From: Acidimicrobiales bacterium
GTDB lineage: Bacteria > Actinomycetota > Acidimicrobiia > Acidimicrobiales > Aldehydirespiratoraceae
Direction of reading: 5' to 3'
DNA length: 64,000 nucleotides
Assembly: GCA_029263215.1 (NCBI GenBank)
Contig: JAJCXY010000051.1
Coordinates: 1-64,000, forward strand
The notes under the pieces were generated by a model. The model searched no databases. It worked only from the letters and a program-made list of their open reading frames with translations, and was not told where the DNA came from. Shown piece after piece: positions 5,362 to 62,723 of the stretch. Each line of letters starts with the position of its first letter. Within the stretch, counting starts at the first letter, position 1. The position numbers and the translations under genes are program-made.

Positions 5362-6117
5362 GTGGCCACCCTGCGTTTCACTTTCGGCACCATGGGATCA
5401 GGGAAGTCCACCCAGGTCCTGCAGATCCATCACAACCTGAGGGCGAGGGGTCTCACCACGGTGCTCACCACCCAACTCGACCGTTCTGAGGGTCGAGTAT
5501 CGAGCCGCTTGGGCGTGTCTGCCGAAGCAGAACTCGTGGAGGCCTCGACCGACCTCTTCGAGCTGGTACGCCAGCGCGCGGCCACGCTCGGCTCGGTAGA
5601 TGCGGTGATCTGTGATGAGGCCCAGTTCTACGACTCGGTCCAGTGCGAACAACTCGCCCGGGTCGTCGACGAACTTCGTATCGATGTCTTCGCGTTCGGC
5701 CTGCTCACCACATTCCAGGGGCGGATGTTCCCGGGGTCGGCTCGCCTGATGGAACTCGCCGACGAACGCACCGAGATCCAGGTGGAAGCCAGGTGCTGGT
5801 GTGGGGAGCGGGCCACCCAAAACGCCCGGTTCGTCGACGGCGTGCAGGTTGTGTCGGGCCAGTTGAAGGTGGTGGGCGATACCGGCGGTCCGGTGGCCGG
5901 CGAAGTCACCTACGACCTGCTGTGCCGGTCGCACTGGATGGAGGGCGCCAACGCCGCTCGAGGCGACCAGCTCGAACTTCTCGACGATGATGTAGCCCGA
6001 CCCGGCGATCATCCCGATCGCAGTGGTCCTGTCGAAGTTGATCCCGACGCAGTGCCGAATCCCCTTCACGTCACGCCGCCCGTCGAGGCGGCCTCGCATT
6101 CCGGAGTTTCCTCGTGA
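5362..6117 (+). CDS. tdk: thymidine kinase
   Basis: Phosphorylates thymidine with ATP for nucleotide salvage. This 251-residue type II thymidine kinase has the P-loop GTMGSGKST at residues 9-17, the DEAQFYD motif, the lasso-region pattern [17 protein letters not shown], and zinc ligands in [12 protein letters not shown] and the late CRSHW. The C-terminus runs about 45 residues beyond the usual end with no clear domain. The start is GTG. It overlaps the following dCTP deaminase by four bases, making a two-gene pyrimidine deoxynucleotide unit, divergent from the stress operon. Confidence 0.93.
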
Positions 6118-6677
6118 TCCTGTCCGACCGCACCATTCGAGAACAGATCGCGGCGGGGCGCATCGTCATCGACCCCCTCGACCCGGTGGGACTGCAACCC
6201 TCGTCGGTCGATCTCCGTCTCGATCGGTGGTTTCGGGTGTTCAAGAACCACACGATGGGCCACATCGACGTCAAGTCGAACCTCGAGGAGCTCACCGAAC
6301 TGGTCGAGGTGGGCGAGGAGGAGCCCTTCATGCTTCACCCTGGTGAGTTTGTGCTCGGGTCGACACTCGAGCGGGTGGCGGTTCCCGATGACCTCGTGGC
6401 GCGGCTCGAGGGGAAGTCGAGTCTCGGCCGGCTGGGCTTGCTGATCCATTCGACCGCGGGCTTCGTCGATGCCGGCTTCGACGGCCAACTCACCCTGGAG
6501 TTGAGCAATGTCGCGAATCTGCCCATCACGCTCTATCCCGACATGAAGATCGGGCAAATCTCGTTTCAGCAGATGACCACGGCCGCCGACGTCCCTTACG
6601 GATCGGGCGCGCTGAGATCGAAGTACAAGCACCAGAAGGGCCCGATGCCGAGCCGTTACTGGGAGAATTTCGACTGA
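6114..6677 (+). CDS. dcd: dCTP deaminase (possibly bifunctional with dUTPase)
   Basis: Deaminates dCTP to dUTP on the route to dTMP. The 187-residue protein opens [21 protein letters not shown], and holds [11 protein letters not shown] and the signature [24 protein letters not shown] with the catalytic glutamate in [10 protein letters not shown]. It ends in the nucleotide-closing tail [20 protein letters not shown]. Actinobacterial homologues often carry out both deamination and dUTP hydrolysis; which applies here cannot be decided by reading. It starts at GTG, coupled to tdk. Confidence 0.93.
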
Positions 6678-6684
6678 GTGGGCG

Positions 6685-6969
6685 TCAGCGGTATTGGGTG
6701 GCGGTGATGATGCCGCCGAGGATCATGGCCAGACCCACCAGCAGGATTCCGTTGCTGGTGTCCCAGGCCGATCCCACATAGTTGAGCAGGATCACCACGA
6801 CGCCTCCGCCCAGGAGGCCGAACATGAGCGCCGGAACCCAGCGCGGGCTCGGCGGCAGGTCCTGGTGGCCGGTGTGGCTGACTGTGTCGTGGTGGAATCC
6901 GTCGGGGCGCGTTCCCTTGGGGGTGACCCTGCCTCCGGATACACGACGTTTCGCTGGCTTCTGCGACAT
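6685..6969 (-). CDS. crgA: cell division protein CrgA
   Basis: A 94-residue membrane protein of the CrgA family, an actinobacterial septation regulator that helps recruit divisome proteins. A basic N-terminus (MSQKPAKRRVSGGRVTPKG) is followed by two hydrophobic segments (WVPALMFGLLGGGVVVILLNYVG and NGILLVGLAMILGGIITATQY, partly quoted by their ends) separated by a short loop, the expected topology. ATG at 6969 gives the family length; the frame is open about 25 codons further upstream without homology. Presence of this gene supports an actinobacterial source. Confidence 0.88.
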   Translation of the reverse strand: MSQKPAKRRVSGGRVTPKGTRPDGFHHDTVSHTGHQDLPPSPRWVPALMFGLLGGGVVVILLNYVGSAWDTSNGILLVGLAMILGGIITATQYR

Positions 6970-7067
6970 TGATGAAGAGGATAGGCGAGTGGAACCCGGA
7001 TCGACAGGAATCACATCGATGTGATTATCCAGAGGTCTCTCCACAGCCTGGGGATAACTTCTTCCGG

Positions 7068-7328
7068 CTACTCGACGGGGGCGACCAGATCCATGTCTTC
7101 GAGGCAGTGGCGGGGCGCTGTCGGGTCCTCATCGGGAGCGATGGTCATCCTCACCTCGGTGCCGCACAAGCTGCACCGGTAGGTGATCTTCACCTTGCGA
7201 AGCTCGCCTGCCGGTGGCGGCTCAGGGACCGGCCGGGCCAGGCCTCTCAGCATGGCTACGCCTATCCGAAGGATCGCGGCACCGGCTGCGAAGGCGACGA
7301 AAAGGTTGAACGCAGTGCCGAAGCTCAC
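7068..7328 (-). CDS. small membrane-anchored zinc-ribbon-like protein
   Basis: An 86-residue protein with one N-terminal hydrophobic segment (MSFGTAFNLFVAFAAGAAIL) and a cytosolic tail holding CSLCGTEV and a later RHCLEDM. Three cysteines and a histidine could bind zinc. I do not recognise a named family. It stands between CrgA and the diguanylate cyclase gene, starting nine bases from the latter's stop, and may be transcribed with it. Confidence 0.65.
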   Translation of the reverse strand: MSFGTAFNLFVAFAAGAAILRIGVAMLRGLARPVPEPPPAGELRKVKITYRCSLCGTEVRMTIAPDEDPTAPRHCLEDMDLVAPVE

Positions 7329-7337
7329 CCGATCAGA

Positions 7338-9137
7338 CTAGGGGCCTGAGTCTCCACATCCGGGGTCGATACACACCTTGTTGCGGCCGGTCTCCTTGGC
7401 CCTGTACAAAGCCATGTCGGCCTTCTTTATGGTGTCGGCGAGGGGTTCTGCCGGACAATGCGATGCCACACCGATGCTGATGGTGACATCGACGGTCCCA
7501 TCGGTGGTGTCGGTGTGCAGGTCCTCGATCGACGATCGCAGCCTCTCGCCGAGTTCGGCCGCGTCGTCGCGAGAAGTCAGCGGCATCAGCACCGCGAACT
7601 CCTCACCACCGAAGCGCACGGCGAAGTCGGCCTTGCGACACATCTCCAGGAGCACTCCGCCGACCGCGACCAGAATCTCGTCGCCGACGACGTGGCCATG
7701 GGTGTCGTTGACCGCCTTGAAGTGATCGATGTCGACCATGAGGAGGGCGAAGCCGGCATCCTCGTTGCGCTGGTGGACCTCGATGAGCCGAGCCGCCGAC
7801 TCGTCGAGATAGCGCCGGGTGTAGAGATTGGTGAGCGGATCTCGGATCGAACGCTCGTACATCGCGTTGCGTTCGGAGTCGAGCATTCGGTTCACCAGCT
7901 CGCGCTCGATCGCGATGCTGATCGGCTGCGAGATTCGATGAAGGGCATCGTCGAGTTCGGCGCTGGTCTTGAAGTCGTCGGCGACTCGCAGGATCGCGAC
8001 CCCCAGAAACTCTGCCCGTTCGGCACTGAACAGGGGAAGGACAGAATCGTTTTCGCCAACCTCCACGGGGAAGCCGACCGAGGTGACGTCGTTGGCGATG
8101 CCTTCGGTCCAACCCTCGGCATCGACGGTGAGGCCGCGGATGCCGGCCGGGAGCTTGATGTCGGTGCCGCGGAATCGATCCAACGACGACAGCCACAGGG
8201 CCGCGTCGTCGCTCATCCGGCAGACGATATCGGTCGACTTCATCGGCATCACCTCACCGATCTCTTCGAAGATGTGACCGATGATCACGCGGAAGTCCCG
8301 CTCGGTGGCCATGGTCTCTACAGCTTCACGCAGGAGGCGGTTGAGCGCCTGTAGGTGGCGGATGTCGGTGTCGGTCTTGGCCAACAGATAGAGGCCACAA
8401 TCGAGGTTCTTGAGCCGGGTTATGTAGGTGGTGACATCGTCGTCGCGAATCAGCTTGCCGTGCTGGGGCGCGATCATCTCGATGGGCCGCTTCTCTAGCT
8501 TGAGCATGGCGTTGAGCAGGATGTCGCGGTCGGGCATGTAGTGCTCGTGAAAGGCGCGCACCCCTTCGAAATCGACCATCCCAGCCGAGAAGATCCTGTT
8601 GTCGCCGGTGAAACCACCGAACAGATCGCTCGACAGCAGGGTGCCCGTCGCCTTGTCGAACGACACGAACGCACCCGGGAAGTGGAGGTAGGGAGTGAAG
8701 ATGAACTCGAGCGCCCGGGCGCCGAGATCGAGCTTCCAGTCGTGTTCGTCGACCAGCCAGAAGGGAACCTTCGGGTCGTAGTGCTTGAGTAGTACGGCCA
8801 CCCGCCAGTGCGTGACCCAGCGGGCGTCGTCGCGAGTGATCATCGCGTCGATCTCGGGCATCGCGCCGCACACGTCGGGATCCTGATGGTGCACCACGAA
8901 CCAGCGGATGTCATCGAAAGAGATGATCTTCTCGATCTTCTCGAGGGTGTCTGACCAGGTGAGCACCGAGCCCGGGTCGAACAGCACCGACTGATCGCCC
9001 TGCTCGAGCAGGTAGACGTGGCACTGGAACGGGTCGCCCTCGATACGTGATCCCACCCACCACAGACGAGGCGCCACCTCGATGGGTTCGAGACCGAACT
9101 CCGCATCGGCGTCGAGGGTGAGTGTCTGTGGATGCAT
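7338..9137 (-). CDS. ODP-type metallo-beta-lactamase domain fused to GGDEF diguanylate cyclase
   Basis: A 599-residue fusion. Residues 1 to about 245 form the beta-lactamase fold of flavodiiron/ODP proteins: H84-x-D86-x-D88, a later His in PYLHFPGAF, Asp in LLSSDLFGG and His in APQHGKLI match the diiron ligands, but the His after D88 is Val. A linker or GAF-like region follows, then a GGDEF domain with GGEEF at 510-514 and an RxxD inhibitory site at 501-504, so it should make c-di-GMP and be product-inhibited. ATG at 9137 is preferred over GTG at 9152 because GGAG precedes it. Likely an oxygen- or redox-responsive cyclase (inference). Confidence 0.87.
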   Translation of the reverse strand: MHPQTLTLDADAEFGLEPIEVAPRLWWVGSRIEGDPFQCHVYLLEQGDQSVLFDPGSVLTWSDTLEKIEKIISFDDIRWFVVHHQDPDVCGAMPEIDAMITRDDARWVTHWRVAVLLKHYDPKVPFWLVDEHDWKLDLGARALEFIFTPYLHFPGAFVSFDKATGTLLSSDLFGGFTGDNRIFSAGMVDFEGVRAFHEHYMPDRDILLNAMLKLEKRPIEMIAPQHGKLIRDDDVTTYITRLKNLDCGLYLLAKTDTDIRHLQALNRLLREAVETMATERDFRVIIGHIFEEIGEVMPMKSTDIVCRMSDDAALWLSSLDRFRGTDIKLPAGIRGLTVDAEGWTEGIANDVTSVGFPVEVGENDSVLPLFSAERAEFLGVAILRVADDFKTSAELDDALHRISQPISIAIERELVNRMLDSERNAMYERSIRDPLTNLYTRRYLDESAARLIEVHQRNEDAGFALLMVDIDHFKAVNDTHGHVVGDEILVAVGGVLLEMCRKADFAVRFGGEEFAVLMPLTSRDDAAELGERLRSSIEDLHTDTTDGTVDVTISIGVASHCPAEPLADTIKKADMALYRAKETGRNKVCIDPGCGDSGP

Positions 9138-56554: not shown

Positions 56555-57427
56555 TTAGCGGAAGGGGAAGAGATGGCTGGGGTTGTCGACGAGGATCTGA
56601 TGCCGGGTGGCTTCGTCGGGGGCGAAGGCGGCGAGTAGGTCGATGAGGTCTCCGTCGTCTGGCATGTGGCGCACATTGGGGTGGGGCCAGTCGGTACCCC
56701 AGAGAATCCGGTCCGGCGCGGCCTCGATGAGGACTCGGGCGTAGGGCACGACATCGTCGTAGGGAGGGGACCCCTCACCGGTCAGCCGCTCGGCGCCGGA
56801 GATCTTCACCCACGCCCGGTCGTCGTCGAGCAGCTTGAGCAGGGCCTGGAACGGGGCTTGCCCGACTCCGCCTTCGACGGGCACGCGGGCCATGTGATCG
56901 ATCACATACGGGCAGGGCATTTGATCGAGCAGATCGGCATATCGGGGTAGGTCGTGGGCATCGAAGTGCAACACGATGTGCCACCCGAGGGGAACGACCC
57001 GGTTGACGAGGCGCCAGTAGGTCTCGAGGTCGGGGGCGCCACCGAGGTGGGCCACGAAGTTGAACCGCGTACCGCGAACTCCGACCTCGTGGAGCTCCTC
57101 GATCTCGGCATCGGTGGTGTTGTCGTCGATCATCGCCACACCCGCGTAGCGGCCACCGCCTCGGCGAATGGCATCGACCATTGCCGCGTTGTCGGTGCCG
57201 TGGCAGCTTGCCTGCACGAAGACGGCGCGGGAAAGACCCAGTGTGGTCTGGAGCGTTTCGAACTTCTCCAGGCCTGAATCGGGTGGGGTGTAGGCCCGCT
57301 TGTCGGCGAAGGGGAACCGGTGGGCGGGGCCGAAGATGTGGCAGTGGGCGTCGCAGGCGTCGGCCGGTGGGGTGTAGGCGGTTGGCCGATGGGGGTTGGG
57401 GTGGGGTCCCGGAATTGGTTTTGTCAT
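56555..57427 (-). CDS. ligI: 2-pyrone-4,6-dicarboxylate hydrolase
   Basis: A 290-residue amidohydrolase. ADACDAHCHIFGPAHRFPFA holds the first metal His pair, FVQASCHGTDNAAMVDAIRR and VRGTRFNFVAHLGG lie in the middle, YVIDHMARVPVEGG gives another His, and DRILWGTDWPHPNVRHMPDD the catalytic Asp. It opens the pyrone lactone made by LigC to 4-oxalomesaconate. ATG at 57427 overlaps the galD stop. The opposite end touches the cassette repeat. Confidence 0.92.
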   Translation of the reverse strand: MTKPIPGPHPNPHRPTAYTPPADACDAHCHIFGPAHRFPFADKRAYTPPDSGLEKFETLQTTLGLSRAVFVQASCHGTDNAAMVDAIRRGGGRYAGVAMIDDNTTDAEIEELHEVGVRGTRFNFVAHLGGAPDLETYWRLVNRVVPLGWHIVLHFDAHDLPRYADLLDQMPCPYVIDHMARVPVEGGVGQAPFQALLKLLDDDRAWVKISGAERLTGEGSPPYDDVVPYARVLIEAAPDRILWGTDWPHPNVRHMPDDGDLIDLLAAFAPDEATRHQILVDNPSHLFPFR

Positions 57428-58518
57428 CGCGGCTGGGATTGGCTGGGATAGACAGTGCCGTCCATCAGCTTGCGGGTGGTGCGAATGATTCCGGCCCGTT
57501 CGATCGTGGGGAGCCCATCGGACCCGGTGCTCATGCCGACGGCCGCTTCGAACGTGCCGGTGGGATGTTCGATGGAGATGGTTTCGCGATCGTCGTCGGT
57601 GATGACTTGTGAGGCCGGTGAGCCCGTGAGAAGGGCGGCGGTGGCGACCGAGACCGCGCCGAGCACGCCTATGGCTTCGTGGCATCGGTGGGGGATGAAC
57701 GTTCGGGTCGAGAGGTGTCCGCCGTGGCGTGGTGGAGCGACCAGGGTGAGTTTCGGCACCGTGGTGTCGGCGACGTCGCCGAGGTTCATCAGGAATCCGG
57801 CCTGGTGGCGGATGTGCTCGAGCCGTTCTGTCAGCGAGGTGTTGGCTTCGAGGTCGGCGCAGGTCTCGTGTCCGCTGACCCCGAGTGCATCGGCCCGCAT
57901 GACCACGACGGGCATCCCGTTGTCGATCAGGGTGCACTGCACCCCGTCGAGCTCGTCGGTGATGTTGCCGGTGGGGAGCAAGGCCCCGCATGAACTGCCT
58001 GCGATCCCCTCGAAGTCGAGGCGGACGGGGCTGGCGGTGCCGGGCACTCCGGAGATGGCGACGTCGCCGGCGTAGACGGGGCGACCGTCGACGATGGCAA
58101 ACGAGGCGGTGGCGATCGAGTCGGTGTTGAGCATGTGTACACGTACGGCGGTGGTGGTTCCGGAGCCGGTCACGAGGCCTCGTTCAACGGAGAACGGGCC
58201 GACTCCGGCCAGCAGGTTGCCGCAGTTCTGACGATCGCTGACGGTGGTCTCCTCCACTCCGATCTGGAGGAAGAGGTACTCGACGTCGGCGTCGAGGTTG
58301 TTGCTCAGACCCACTATCGCGACCTTGCTGGTGAGGGGGTGGGCTCCGCCGATGCCGTCGATCTGGCGGGGGTCGGGTGTGCCCATGATCGCCAGGAGAA
58401 GGTTGTCGCGCTCTGAGGGGTCGGTGGGGAGTTGATCGCTGAGGAAGTAGGCGCCTTTGGAGGTGCCACCTCGCATGATCATGCACTCCACGCCGGTGGA
58501 GTCGGGGGCGCCGTTCAT
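57424..58518 (-). CDS. galD: 4-oxalomesaconate tautomerase (PrpF family)
   Basis: A 364-residue PrpF/GalD-family isomerase. CMIMRGGTSKGAYFLSDQLP, RQIDGIGGAHPLTSKVAIVG and SDRQNCGNLLAGVGPFSVER are family marks, with the catalytic Cys expected near NCGN. It tautomerises 4-oxalomesaconate between its enol and keto forms for LigJ. It is the first gene of the galD-ligI unit. The palindrome at 58542-58561 lies 23 bases upstream of its ATG. Confidence 0.9.
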   Translation of the reverse strand: MNGAPDSTGVECMIMRGGTSKGAYFLSDQLPTDPSERDNLLLAIMGTPDPRQIDGIGGAHPLTSKVAIVGLSNNLDADVEYLFLQIGVEETTVSDRQNCGNLLAGVGPFSVERGLVTGSGTTTAVRVHMLNTDSIATASFAIVDGRPVYAGDVAISGVPGTASPVRLDFEGIAGSSCGALLPTGNITDELDGVQCTLIDNGMPVVVMRADALGVSGHETCADLEANTSLTERLEHIRHQAGFLMNLGDVADTTVPKLTLVAPPRHGGHLSTRTFIPHRCHEAIGVLGAVSVATAALLTGSPASQVITDDDRETISIEHPTGTFEAAVGMSTGSDGLPTIERAGIIRTTRKLMDGTVYPSQSQPR

Positions 58519-58541
58519 GGCGACATTGTGGCGGATGTCGA

Positions 58542-58561
58542 CAGGATTGTCGACAATCCTG
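58542..58561. promoter_or_regulatory. candidate operator, 20-base perfect palindrome
   Basis: CAGGATTGTCGACAATCCTG is a perfect palindrome with the core ATTGTCGACAAT at 58546-58557. It lies upstream of galD and over the stop region of the PhnD-like gene. It shares ATTGTnnACAAT with the sites before ligA/hydrolase and GntR/ligC, suggesting a third site of one regulator. Confidence 0.78.
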
Positions 58562-58562
58562 G

Positions 58563-59357
58563 TCAGGCCAGAGTTGGGTAACCGAGCTCTGTGGCCCGGT
58601 CGAGTCGTTGCGCGATGATGTCGTAGTCGGCTCGTGTCCTGGGTCGGAAGCCGGCCAGGTGGAGGGTGCGGCGACTATCGGGGTGAAGGTGCTCGACACC
58701 GAGGGAGATCGCCTCGACCAGTGCCGGTCGGTCTGCGCTGTGGGCAAGGCTGGTGATCATGGGCAGGCCGGGTGTTCGTTCGGTGCGAGCGAGCACTCGC
58801 ACCAGTTGGGCGGCGGGTTCTTGGTCGAGCGCCAGTAGCCAGGAGACGGCATCGACAGCGGCCACGTCGGCGCGCCCTTCGCCGACCGCGGTGATCGATG
58901 CCCGATGCGATCCGCTCTCGATGCTCGGTCCGAAAAACTTCCCGTCGGCGGCCATCGGCGCGACCGCGTGTTGGAGGGCGGCGTGGCCCGACTGGGAGTC
59001 GCGGGCATTGAATGCCACCCGTGCGCCGGCGAGATCGGACAGCGATGCCGGGGGTGCGTCGGCGGCCACGATGACGACCGAGTGGTAGTCGCCGGGGTCG
59101 GTGTCGGGAAGATCGAAGGCGAAGGAACCGAGAACCACGACGCTCGCGTCGAGTCGCTGCACGAGGGGGAGTCCGCAGGTCTGGCCCACGAGCAATTCCG
59201 GGCTGAGCCACTGGCGAACGGGGTCGGTGGTGCGGGTGAGTTCCTCGGGGACCGCCAGTCCCAACTGCCGGGCCTCTTCGGCGATCGAGTGCCATAGCTG
59301 GTCGATCGAACCGTGTACCTCCGGCCAGTCGTACATGGGGAGAGAGGCGAATGTCAT
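58563..59357 (-). CDS. PhnD/SsuA-like substrate-binding-fold protein without signal peptide
   Basis: A 264-residue protein with the type 2 periplasmic-binding fold of PhnD: RQWLSPELLVGQTCGLPLVQ, GDYHSVVIVAADAPPASLSD, ARVAFNARDSQSGHAALQHA and GRADVAAVDAVSWLLALDQE. The N-terminus has no signal peptide, so it should stay in the cytosol, and no ABC transporter gene is present. It may be a sensor or a catalytic relative. It begins five bases after the P450 stop and so belongs to the selenoprotein operon. Confidence 0.8.
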   Translation of the reverse strand: MTFASLPMYDWPEVHGSIDQLWHSIAEEARQLGLAVPEELTRTTDPVRQWLSPELLVGQTCGLPLVQRLDASVVVLGSFAFDLPDTDPGDYHSVVIVAADAPPASLSDLAGARVAFNARDSQSGHAALQHAVAPMAADGKFFGPSIESGSHRASITAVGEGRADVAAVDAVSWLLALDQEPAAQLVRVLARTERTPGLPMITSLAHSADRPALVEAISLGVEHLHPDSRRTLHLAGFRPRTRADYDIIAQRLDRATELGYPTLA

Positions 59358-59361
59358 GGGG

Positions 59362-60516
59362 TCACCCTGGGTTCCAGTGGGCCTGTACGGCAACCGGTTT
59401 GCGAAAGACGAGTCCTCGGGGCCCGGCGCTGGCCGTGGCATCGATCTGAATGTCGGGGAGCAGATCGAGGACCGCGCTCAGCGCAGCGGATGTTTCGATG
59501 CGGGCGAGATGGATCCCGAGGCAGGCATGGGGCCCGTAGACGAAGGTCGTGTGCTGACGCAGATTCGGACGGGTGATGTCGAATCGGTCGGGTTCGGTGA
59601 ACACCTCAGGATCACGGTTGGCCGCGGCGAGCGAGATGCTCAGATAGTCGCGCTCGGCGATCTCGACATCGCCGAGGCCGACCGATCGAACGGCGTAGCG
59701 GTCGATCGATGCCGCGGCGGGTTCGAGGCGAAACGACTCTTCGATCGCGTTGGGAAGAAGGGTTCGATCAGTGCGTACGGCTTGGAGCTGGTCTGGGTGA
59801 GACAGGAGGTGAAGCAGGGCGCTGGCGGTCGCTGCTTCCGACGTCTCGATGGCGCCGAACATGATCACGGCTGCGTTCGACGCGACCTCTGCTTCGGAGA
59901 GATCGGCCCGTGCCGTCTCAGCGAGCAAGGAGCCTCCCTGGGCCGAGATGGTCTCGGCTACCGCCACCCTCAGCTCGGTGAAAGCCGCGCCACCGGCCCG
60001 AGTGTCGCTGGCGCCGGCGGCGATCGCCTGCACCGTCTCGACGATCACGGAATACCAGCGGAGGAGTCGCTCGGGGTCGACTTCGGTCAAGCCTAGGGAG
60101 CGGATGATCGTGGCCACGGCCAGAGGCGCAGCCAGTGTGGTCCGGAGTTCGGCCGTGCTGGCAGGTTGCAGGTCGATCACCAGTCGCCGGGCTTCCGCCT
60201 CCACCCAGGCTCCGAGATCGTGGTGGACCCGAGCGGCGCCGTAGGGATCCACGAACGGGGCTCGGTGGCGGCTGTGTACGGCCCCGTCGGTCGACAGCAT
60301 GCTCGGCCCGATCACCCGGGCGGTCGAGAAGCGCGGGTCGTCGACGGTGAACGTGGCTGAGTCGCGCATCGCCGCGACCGCGAGCTCTCGCGACGTCACC
60401 ATCCAGCCGTCGATGGCCGGCACCCAGGCGACCGGACTCTCTGCTCGAAGGCGATGAAGGGTTGGGTGTGGGTCGGCTTCGAGGGCGGCGAGGGTCACCG
60501 ACTCGGCGACGCTCAT
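59362..60516 (-). CDS. cytochrome P450
   Basis: A 384-residue bacterial P450. The heme motif FVYGPHACLGIHLARIE places the thiolate at C332. The K-helix E-x-x-R is EESFR, and the I-helix reads IMFGAIETSEA with Glu-Thr in place of the more usual Asp-Thr. No membrane anchor is seen. The partner ferredoxin is not in the operon. It starts two bases from the stop of the UGSC selenoprotein, so the two are likely co-translated. Confidence 0.9.
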   Translation of the reverse strand: MSVAESVTLAALEADPHPTLHRLRAESPVAWVPAIDGWMVTSRELAVAAMRDSATFTVDDPRFSTARVIGPSMLSTDGAVHSRHRAPFVDPYGAARVHHDLGAWVEAEARRLVIDLQPASTAELRTTLAAPLAVATIIRSLGLTEVDPERLLRWYSVIVETVQAIAAGASDTRAGGAAFTELRVAVAETISAQGGSLLAETARADLSEAEVASNAAVIMFGAIETSEAATASALLHLLSHPDQLQAVRTDRTLLPNAIEESFRLEPAAASIDRYAVRSVGLGDVEIAERDYLSISLAAANRDPEVFTEPDRFDITRPNLRQHTTFVYGPHACLGIHLARIETSAALSAVLDLLPDIQIDATASAGPRGLVFRKPVAVQAHWNPG

Positions 60517-60517
60517 C

Positions 60518-62272
60518 TCAGACCCCGGAGCTCGGCGGTGAAGGAAGTCGACAGGCCAGGTTGTCGGCCTTGGTTCGGTCGACGGGTCGGCTGGTCCAGT
60601 GGCCGTGGGGACCGTCGTTGCTCATGACGTAGGCGTTGGTGCGGTTGGGATCGCCGGCCACCGCGATCACAAAATGGTCTGGTGAGGTAACCAGGGGGAT
60701 CAGCCGGTGGGGATCGTCGGATGTGCCGAACACCGTGGGTATGTGGCCGTCGAGGGCGAGGTCGGCCATTCGCGGGTTGCCGGGGGTGAGCCTGCTCCAT
60801 TCGCCGATCAGCTTCTCGAACTTCCATGCAGGGAGTCTGGCCTGTTCGAAGAGAGCGGTGCCCACATCGGACTTCGACCAGCCCGAGGAGGCGAACACCC
60901 TGGCCAACACCGGCGCCAGGATCAGCAGTGGTCGGTAGTGGCCCTGGCCGAGGCCGTGGACGTGGGTGAGGTCCCAACCACTCACCCTGACGAGCCCGTC
61001 GGCGAGGTAGGGGAGGATTTCCTCAGGGGTGGAACCGACGACACTTCCGATGATCAATCCACTGTTCATCCGGGCCATGGTCACCGCGTCGTTGCCGACT
61101 GAGCCACCGAAGTCGGCGCTTACCGGCTCCCAGCCGATCTCGGTGAGAGTGTCCCAGTCTTCGGCCAGCACCACCCGTGCGGAGTTTCCGAAGGTGGCCT
61201 TGTCGTGTTCGTCGGCGGTGAAGCCGTAGACGTTGCGCAGATAGAGGCGTAGCCATCGACCGACTGCGGTGTTGGCGTGGGTGCCTTCTCGCAGGGCCCC
61301 CTGGCCGGAGTTGAGTCCGAATTCGCGGGCGGACGGTCCGCTGAAAATGACCAGAGCATCGGCGCCGGTGGTATTGCCGGAATGTTCCGCTCCGTAGCTG
61401 GGATCGGCGAGGATCTCGGTTAGCGCCAGCAGGATCGGCAGCTGATCGGGGTGACAGCCCGCCATGACCGCGTTCACCGCCACGGACCAAACCGTGAGAT
61501 CTCGGCCCGAGGACTTGGCAGTGCCGAGGGTCTTCCACGGATCATGACCGGAGTCGCCGATCAACTTCTCGACACGATCGCGGGTGGGGGGAATGATCGG
61601 TAGGCCGTCGCTCCAACCCTCCTCGACGAATCGCCGGTTGATCTCGTCGATGGTGCCCGACGCTACGACGTCGAGGGCGGTGGGCTCGATGGGTCCGCCC
61701 GCCCCGGGCGAACCGTCGATGGCTCGATGGGTGAGGCCCGCGACGATCTCATCCATGGTGTGAGCCAGGAGATCGGCAACATTGTCGACGTGTGTCCGTG
61801 CGTCGACGTGGCCCCGGAGCACGGCGAGAGCAAGCCCGTCGAAGCCGTGACCCCGGCCGGTGGCGCGGGCCTGTTTATCGAACCCCTCACAGACGATCGA
61901 TACCGACGGGATCCCTGCTCTTTCGGCGGCGATGGATGCCCGCATCACGGCGGGCGTGCAGCTACCTCAACAACCCATCCCGGAGACGACGGCATCGATG
62001 CGCCTTGTCCGGAGCCTGTCGGGGAGCCGGGAAATCACTTCCGCCTCGTCCCCGCCATGGGTGTTTCCGAACTCCTCGTAGCCGACGACTTCGACCCCTC
62101 CGAAGCGCTCGGTGAGCTCTGCCTCGATGACGGGGAAGAGCTCGTCGCCGCGAAAGAGGTCGTCCCAGAGGAACGCCACTCGCTTGTCGTCCAACTCGTC
62201 GAGCCGATCGGCGAGGCGATGAACCTGCACTCCCAAGGGGGAGCGGGGCCAGATGGCTTCGTAGGATTCCAT
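60518..62272 (-). CDS. UGSC-family selenoprotein with large C-terminal domain (in-frame TGA = Sec)
   Basis: One 584-residue frame interrupted only by TGA at 61967-61969. Reading TGA as selenocysteine gives GMGC-U102-GSC105-TPAVMRASIAAER, the UGSC motif. The N-terminal domain (to about 170: DKRVAFLWDDLFRG, SVSIVCEGFD) is that of the UGSC family. A second domain, about 185-584, begins INRRFVEEGWSDGLPIIPPT and has no function known to me. A SECIS-like hairpin sits 11 bases after the TGA. A redox role for Cys101/Sec102/Cys105 is likely. ATG at 62272 is preferred; the frame is open to 62395. Read normally, it would look like two broken genes. Confidence 0.87.
61938..61969 (-). promoter_or_regulatory. 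bacterial SECIS-like element with its UGA codon
   Basis: On the minus strand the TGA (61969-61967) is followed by 11 bases and a hairpin GCCCGC-CGTGAT-GCGGGC (61955-61938). The stem is six perfect G/C pairs and the six-base loop has a G in its second position. This agrees with the bacterial SECIS rules of a small stem-loop shortly after the UGA with an early G in the apical loop. Confidence 0.82.
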
Positions 62273-62723
62273 GACGACATGGTGCCAGATCAAGGGAGAT
62301 GGGCGACTGGCCAACAACGAGCTGGCGGCCCGGGTCGGACTCAGCCCCTCGCCGCGCCTGCGTCGGGTGCGAAACCTGGAGGCTTCCGGAGCCATCGCCG
62401 GCTACACCGCGGTGCTCGATCGCACCTCGATCGGGTGCTCGTACGAACCCCTGGTGTGGGTGACCCTGTCCGCGGTCAACCGAGGCTCCATGGATGAGTT
62501 CGAGGCGGCGGTGAACGAGGTTCCCGAGGTGGTCGAGTCGCTGCGCATGATGGGCCAGCCCGACTATCTGCTCAGGGTGGTGGCAGCCGATCCGCAGGCA
62601 TTCGAAACCCTCTACATCGACAGGCTTGCCAACCTGCCATGGGTCCAAACCCTCACGTCGCAGCTCGCGATGAAGGTGGTGAAGCGCACCCACGTTCTGC
62701 CGGTACACCCATCGGCGCCGTGA
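62271..62723 (+). CDS. Lrp/AsnC-family regulator with abnormal N-terminus
   Basis: A 150-residue Lrp-type protein. The HTH reads DGRLANNELAARVGLSPSPR with LRRVRNLEASGAIAGYTAVL, followed by the RAM ligand domain (VVESLRMMGQPDYLLRVVAA, LPWVQTLTSQLAMKVVKRTH). The usual first helix (L-D-x-x-D-x-x-I-L) is absent: only MTTWCQIKG precedes DGRL, and an in-frame stop lies at 62262-62264. Its ATG shares the CATG with the divergent selenoprotein start. It is probably functional or slightly truncated, and it may control the selenoprotein operon. Confidence 0.82.
   Translation: MTTWCQIKGDGRLANNELAARVGLSPSPRLRRVRNLEASGAIAGYTAVLDRTSIGCSYEPLVWVTLSAVNRGSMDEFEAAVNEVPEVVESLRMMGQPDYLLRVVAADPQAFETLYIDRLANLPWVQTLTSQLAMKVVKRTHVLPVHPSAP

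Follow-up and report, generated by a model that had tools for sequence, protein, structure and literature searches.

Two open frames on the minus strand of a 64,000-nucleotide stretch from an Acidimicrobiales bacterium (contig JAJCXY010000051.1, positions 1 to 64,000; hereafter the window) raise the question of whether they represent two genes or one. The frames (62395-61967 and 61948-60518) lie in the same phase, and between them stand a TGA (61969-61967) and six sense codons, this TGA being the single interruption of the minus-strand frame 62395-60518. Reading through it yields GMGC-U-GSC-TPAV and, from the ATG at 62272, a protein of 584 residues that contains the U/C-G-S-C motif of the UGSC family. 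The initial annotation had described one gene split by a TGA and had predicted that automatic annotation would break it in two, and the data bear out both statements, as the frames are in phase and both are open, so that an automatic caller would list each of them. The ATG at 62272 is the likely start of the gene, since the alignment of its homologues can begin at about this point; in the alignment of 22 fusion sequences, the homologue starts were set nearest to the point matching this ATG. The features of the locus are collected in Table 1.

Table 1. Features of the fusion gene and its surroundings in the window
Feature	Position	Strand	Evidence or remark
UGSC-partner fusion selenoprotein gene (very probable)	60518..62272	-	584 codons plus stop TGA 60520-60518; read-through translation, 22-sequence alignment
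UGSC domain (PF24696), residues 16-181	61730..62227	-	E 4.4e-29, 102.2 bits versus cut-off 25
TGA, very probably read as selenocysteine (Sec102)	61967..61969	-	homologue codon comparison
Cys105 of U-G-S-C, presumed resolving cysteine	61958..61960	-	invariant in 22/22 fusions
Predicted bacterial-type SECIS hairpin, GCCCGC-CGTGAT-GCGGGC	61938..61955	-	11 bases after TGA; homologue pairing, synonymous-site freeze
Partner (C-terminal) domain, about residues 205-584	60521..61660	-	~380 residues; homologue comparison
Cys273 (MAGC)	61454..61456	-	sole Cys invariant in fused and stand-alone partners aligned (alignments of 22 and 18 rows)
Divergent Lrp/AsnC-type regulator	62271..62723	+	same cluster beside 6/24 homologous loci from genome-collection scan

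Conservation of the in-frame TGA

Homologues were taken from 198 related genomes and from one scan of a genome collection, the records of which are named Acidimicrobiales or Acidimicrobiaceae, other Actinomycetota, Binatia or Binatota, and, in one case, Desulfurellaceae. Codon 102 is covered by 50 loci, 48 of them at 48.6% identity or more and two remote (<30% identity). All 48 closer loci, own copy counted, have TGA at this codon; they correspond to 38 distinct 48-base windows, several genomes being apparently present in both collections. Because the same TGA recurs in independent assemblies (47 other loci), it is very probably not the sequencing error at 61967-61969 that would have undone the initial annotation. 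Nor do the homologues end there: codons 103-105 (G-S-C), which lead from the TGA to the first possible restart GTG, show synonymous variation only among the 22 fusions, and codon 106 encodes Thr in 21 of them. Since G-S-C is kept as protein while varying as DNA, translation most probably passes through the TGA.

The two remote loci, L046 and L047, are distant UGSC-partner relatives; the former has TGC at the codon in question and the latter TGA with a different hairpin. Cysteine (TGC/TGT) occupies the Sec codon in five homologues (L046, L075, L091, L095, and L096), all remote, and no Sec-Cys exchange was found within the close fusions. The residue preceding Sec is Cys in 21 fusions and Ala in one, unlike the stand-alone members of the family, in which 50 distinct TGA windows have Asp (47), Asn (2), or Gly (1), so a Cys in front of U-G-S-C is not a general trait of the family. 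The UGSC profile was built without five of the 30 loci obtained by the UGSC search (L099-L103): L099 and L100 are UGSC-family matches with TGA in the variant motifs U-G-G-C and U-D-G-C, respectively, no TGA motif was obtained for L101 and L103, and L102, earlier counted as a Cys homologue, looks like an unrelated flavoprotein.

A hairpin downstream of the TGA

A hairpin fitting a bacterial SECIS had been proposed 11 bases after the TGA, and this held on both counts: the stem begins at 61955, making the spacing exactly 11, and it is kept in homologues and frozen at synonymous sites. The stem GCCCGC/GCGGGC pairs 6/6 in all 38 distinct windows, one of which has a G-U wobble. Among 158 invariant codon columns for degenerate amino acids in the 22 fusions, with a mean third-base entropy of 1.13 bits, only six are devoid of third-base variation, namely the TGA, CCC107, GCC108, GTG109, CGG111, and F515. 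Four of the five frozen sense columns lie in the hairpin (hypergeometric chance about 2e-7, computed by hand and with relatedness ignored). The comparison supports the view that the fusion hairpin is under selection at the nucleotide level. According to the accessible text of PMC1088965, a bacterial SECIS is a stem-loop immediately downstream of the UGA with a small apical loop containing G, and the fusion hairpin has this form. An Rfam scan of 61880-62020 returned no SECIS family and two chance-level matches only. Presumably, the fusion stem-loop is similar to the SECIS of E. coli fdhF.

Stand-alone UGSC genes carry a different hairpin (GTCGTGC-AGTGT-GCACGAC) at the same distance from the TGA. 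In 50 distinct windows, comprising matches with the motif U/C-G-S/A-x only, the three varying inner pairs of this hairpin are paired in all cells, a level that none of 2000 shuffles (79% on average) reached. The whole stem is paired in 94.6% of cells, as against 12-51% for slid versions, with less regularity in the two outer pairs. Covariation links the final base of the 5' arm to the third position of the codon facing it (Fisher 2.7e-11, relatedness ignored): C or U goes with a codon ending in G in 39/39 windows, and G with a codon ending in C in 11/11, meaning that a Cys-to-Trp change in the protein accompanies a third-base change in the codon opposite, which specifies Val, Ile, or Leu. In four stand-alone Cys homologues only 43% of cells are paired, and a matching hairpin is absent.

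Selenocysteine machinery and decoding of the TGA

The genome (4.05 Mb in 131 contigs, 94.8% complete) was searched for selA, selB, selC, and selD, and all four were found with scores exceeding the curated cut-offs. The tRNA-Sec (anticodon tca, 64 bits) lies on contig 78, where the genes for SelA (378.8 bits) and SelB (273.4 bits) stand side by side, while SelD (359.8 bits), the gene of which has one in-frame TGA, is encoded on contig 18.

The single selenoprotein suggested by the initial annotation is thus backed by the TGA in 48/48 loci at 48.6% identity or more, by the Sec machinery, and by the conserved hairpin. We consider it very probable that the locus is one selenoprotein gene, in which UGA102 is decoded as selenocysteine with the help of the hairpin and translation runs on into the partner domain. 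The arrangement that an automatic caller would report, both frames being open, is a 101-residue UGSC stub ending at the TGA and a second protein starting from GTG 61948. However, such a stub would be deprived of roughly half the UGSC domain, the GTG of the restart sits in the hairpin loop, the intervening G-S-C shows nothing but synonymous variation across 22 sequences, and remote homologues have Cys in place of the TGA, all of which makes two genes highly improbable. A pseudogene or a sequencing error at the TGA might be suspected in so fragmented an assembly (131 contigs), but the same TGA is found in 47 other loci (38 distinct windows including own) and the protein is conserved on both sides of it, leaving this explanation with an almost negligible probability. 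Read-through of one TGA would also be expected if this genome had assigned the codon to a different amino acid. Against this stand the TGA that terminates the fusion gene itself, the tRNA with anticodon tca that the search revealed, which is tRNA-Sec, and the five non-TGA homologues, which all have Cys at the codon and no other residue, so that reassignment is hardly credible.

The partner domain

The initial annotation had also noted a C-terminal domain of about 400 residues and concluded that the family is a large multidomain enzyme. The domain is there (about 380 residues), but it does not extend the family; elsewhere it is encoded separately, as a partner. Searched against Pfam and NCBIfam at a maximum E of 10, residues 205-584 had no match; in such a search the HMMER filters remove most matches with an E beyond about 0.1. 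The same domain is also encoded alone, at about 26-37% identity. In 20 fetched UGSC loci, six of them chosen with a partner match already visible and 14 taken blind from the UGSC list, a partner gene was directly adjacent on the same strand in every case; it came first in 19 and after UGSC in one (L122), and in three of the 20 it was found by profiles where simple gene picking had not revealed it. Viewed from the partner side, 150 listed rows minus 29 left out as fusions or as spanning the UGSC motif gave 121 stand-alone partner rows, at least 84 of which have a same-strand UGSC row no more than 2.5 kb away among the matches listed (partner first in 81, UGSC first in 3). Twenty of the other 37 were fetched, and UGSC was found beside the partner in 14, a contig end in 2, and no UGSC nearby in 4. 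Similarly, 66 of the 150 listed UGSC rows had no listed partner; 20 of these were fetched, and 18 had a partner within about 2 kb, one being a fragment at a contig end, while the remaining two were without a partner. Across the 198 related genomes, both proteins occur in 108 and neither in 85, with partner only in two (G104 and, weakly, G058) and UGSC only in three (G075, G112, and, weakly, G068).

The genome under study has a separate partner and UGSC pair besides the fusion. This pair (L105, contig 57:34000-46000, at 5518-7517 on the minus strand) consists of a thioredoxin-partner gene and a stand-alone UGSC selenoprotein gene, and an acyl-CoA dehydrogenase-cluster gene lies directly downstream of it. 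The comparison supports the C-terminal domain being a regular partner of UGSC that is fused to it here, and since the partner is elsewhere a separate neighbor of UGSC, the fusion gene represents the single-chain form of a two-protein system.

An extra N-terminal part is present in nine of 17 aligned stand-alone partners, eight times with CxTC and once with CPTS, and the other eight have no such thioredoxin part. A profile of the eight CxTC parts matches solved thioredoxins with values down to 3.6e-6, and the best 60 of 118 matches are all named thioredoxin. Single-sequence Pfam matches of the N-terminal part were weak, the best of them (4.1e-4) being TraF, which we take to be itself thioredoxin-like.

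Predicted fold and remote relatives

In the thioredoxin fold, the order of strands and helices differs from plain alternation. An AlphaFold model of the fusion, built with 22 sequences (pLDDT 82.8, pTM 0.85), presents the UGSC domain as an alternation of strand and helix in five units and places Sec102 between one strand and one helix. Section 9 of PMC2398784 states a Trx-like fold as likely for UGSC; the five strand-helix units, a prediction only, do not fit it. A whole-chain fold search gave weak matches without aligned ranges, for which reason the B12 domains of MetH and other weak fold matches were assigned to no domain. Leishmania fumarase, the best Foldseek match of both the full model and the partner alone, was dismissed as meaningless (query-normalized TM 0.17-0.26). 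No credible solved relative of the partner domain was found, the query-normalized TM being at most 0.26 among the matches listed. Sequence searches of solved structures with the fusion protein and with the profiles of that protein and of the partner gave no match, and such a search with a GrdB-type protein gave no credible solved relative either.

Profile comparison pointed to another relationship. A UGSC profile of 47 sequences matched 12 PrdB-like proteins (same phylum, with U-P-x-C or similar, one from the same genome) at P 2.8e-6, Sec aligned on Sec, and at P 2.8e-5 once the motif had been masked on both sides, while the best of 19 decoy families from the neighborhoods reached P 0.008. The hhalign probability was 88% over about 88 columns, as for a remote match. 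Against 14 GrdB-type proteins, the mixed UGSC profile gave P 0.0015, the stand-alone UGSC profile P 8.6e-5, and the fusion profile alone P 0.0017, the last aligned outside the Sec region. Moreover, a UGSC relative with Cys (L113) matched TIGR04483 (PrdB) at E 0.0022, with 17.5 of 300 bits; the fusion protein itself had no match to PF07355 or TIGR04483 in the Pfam and NCBIfam searches. As far as a profile match can indicate, the UGSC domain appears remotely related to PrdB-type reductase selenoproteins. It resembles PrdB and GrdB (PF07355, TIGR04483) in having Sec followed by xxC and in the remote PrdB-like match, Sec on Sec, and the fusion differs from the PrdB and GrdB of D-proline and glycine reductase in its partner domain; the partner subunits of those reductases, PrdA and GrdE, are pyruvoyl proteins.

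Out of many PrdB-like matches in the phylum, 12 loci were inspected, and in all 12 the TGA-interrupted frame reads on. In the locus from the genome under study (L144, contig 108:5049-5492), reading the PrdB-like frame beyond a TGA gives U-P-V-C, and on this ground L144 is probably another selenoprotein.

Neighboring genes

The N-terminal residues VDDIDRAIL...LQ, present in its relatives, are missing from the divergent Lrp/AsnC regulator, the first ATG of which overlaps the beginning of the fusion gene, where L055, L064, and L066 have 80-100 bases between the two genes. The shortened regulator and the overlap may be explained by a deletion, either real or of the assembly. Raw counts over 45 neighborhoods (44 loci and the window) gave the Lrp cluster 7 times, acyl-CoA dehydrogenase 8 times, and CoA-transferase III 6 times. 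Acyl-CoA dehydrogenase genes are common in genomes, and their presence in 8/45 neighborhoods, a raw count, was set aside as functional evidence.

Downstream of the fusion gene and on the same strand, the region 56555-60516 encodes a cytochrome P450, a phosphonate-type binding protein, an amidohydrolase, and a 4-oxalomesaconate tautomerase, the latter scoring over its cut-off. These neighbors hint at peripheral catabolism without identifying the substrate. In four other loci (L052, L053, L057, and L071; three Binatia/Binatota and one titled Desulfurellaceae), an amidase-cluster gene precedes the fusion, and in three of them a sodium:solute symporter-cluster gene follows it, the fourth stretch ending there. 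Amidase, fusion, and symporter may possibly form a cassette for uptake and breakdown.

Relation to the known UGSC family

The read-through protein matches UGSC, as expected, since its 102.2 bits lie well over the PF24696 gathering score of 25, but it stays below the equivalog cut-off of NCBIfam NF041046 (57.8 versus 125 bits) and is therefore a UGSC-domain protein that is not an NF041046 equivalog. The fusion gene is hence a new member of a known family, with which it shares the U-G-S-C motif, the TGA, and a downstream hairpin; its subfamily is divergent and, unlike NF041046, joined to a partner domain. U-G-S-C does mark the UGSC family, as the initial annotation stated, but the tie to marine metagenomes needs correcting, as UGSC genes are reported to be relatively more frequent in the non-marine samples of the GOS survey (excerpts of PMC2398784). 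The same survey has had a UGSC/Unknown_1 fusion in print since 2008, which, judged by its description, resembles the present protein in joining UGSC to a conserved domain of unknown function. As far as excerpts of the respective papers go, UGSC accounts for 8.2% of selenoprotein genes (PMC9402790), a 2026 review places it among families with largely uncharacterized functions (PMC13188914), and PMC5330540 refers to a report that describes UGSC-motif selenoproteins from three genomes with a tRNA-Sec of anticodon CUA. Section 9 of PMC2398784 is silent on adjacent partner genes, on a thioredoxin part of the partner, and on PrdB, and no mention of any of these was found in the accessible passages of the UGSC selenoprotein literature available without subscription.

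Proposed mechanism and significance

The fusion is probably a thiol-fed selenol enzyme. In the mechanism that we propose, Sec102 and Cys105 would constitute an active site on the UGSC domain that is completed by the partner domain. Sec102 would attack or reduce a small substrate bound between the two domains, Cys105 and perhaps also Cys273 of the partner would resolve the selenenyl intermediate, and a thioredoxin would supply the electrons for re-reduction. This thioredoxin is seemingly built into the partner in many relatives, while the present fusion would need an external source. The scheme as a whole, including the chemistry of Sec102, its resolution by Cys, and re-reduction by thioredoxin, is plausible but tentative.

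As to the reaction, the fusion might instead be a selenoenzyme detoxifying peroxides or disulfides, like peroxiredoxin or thioredoxin, rather than a PrdB-like substrate reductase. The UxxC motif, the Trx-like fold held to be likely for UGSC in the section consulted of PMC2398784, and the thioredoxin-like part in 9/17 aligned partner relatives speak for detoxification, whereas the modeled UGSC domain, alternating strand and helix five times unlike the thioredoxin order, the profile relation of UGSC to PrdB-like proteins, and the conserved partner domain, about 380 residues long, speak against it, and we regard it as fairly unlikely. Reductive cleavage, as catalyzed by proline or glycine reductase, is only slightly favored over peroxide or disulfide reduction.

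The fusion gene exemplifies how a caller that treats TGA as a stop cuts one selenoprotein gene in two, and it offers a handle on the function of the common but unexplained UGSC family: the partner gene, the built-in thioredoxin, and the link to PrdB indicate which complex, electron donor, and reaction class to examine. It is conceivable, though rather doubtful at present, that UGSC is the selenol subunit of a widespread and unrecognized reductase of free-living bacteria, usually of two components and sometimes of one chain. If so, a PrdB-type catalytic domain together with a new partner, often equipped with its own thioredoxin, would cleave a small organic substrate reductively, and the UGSC reductase would be an analog of the proline and glycine reductases of fermenting clostridia.
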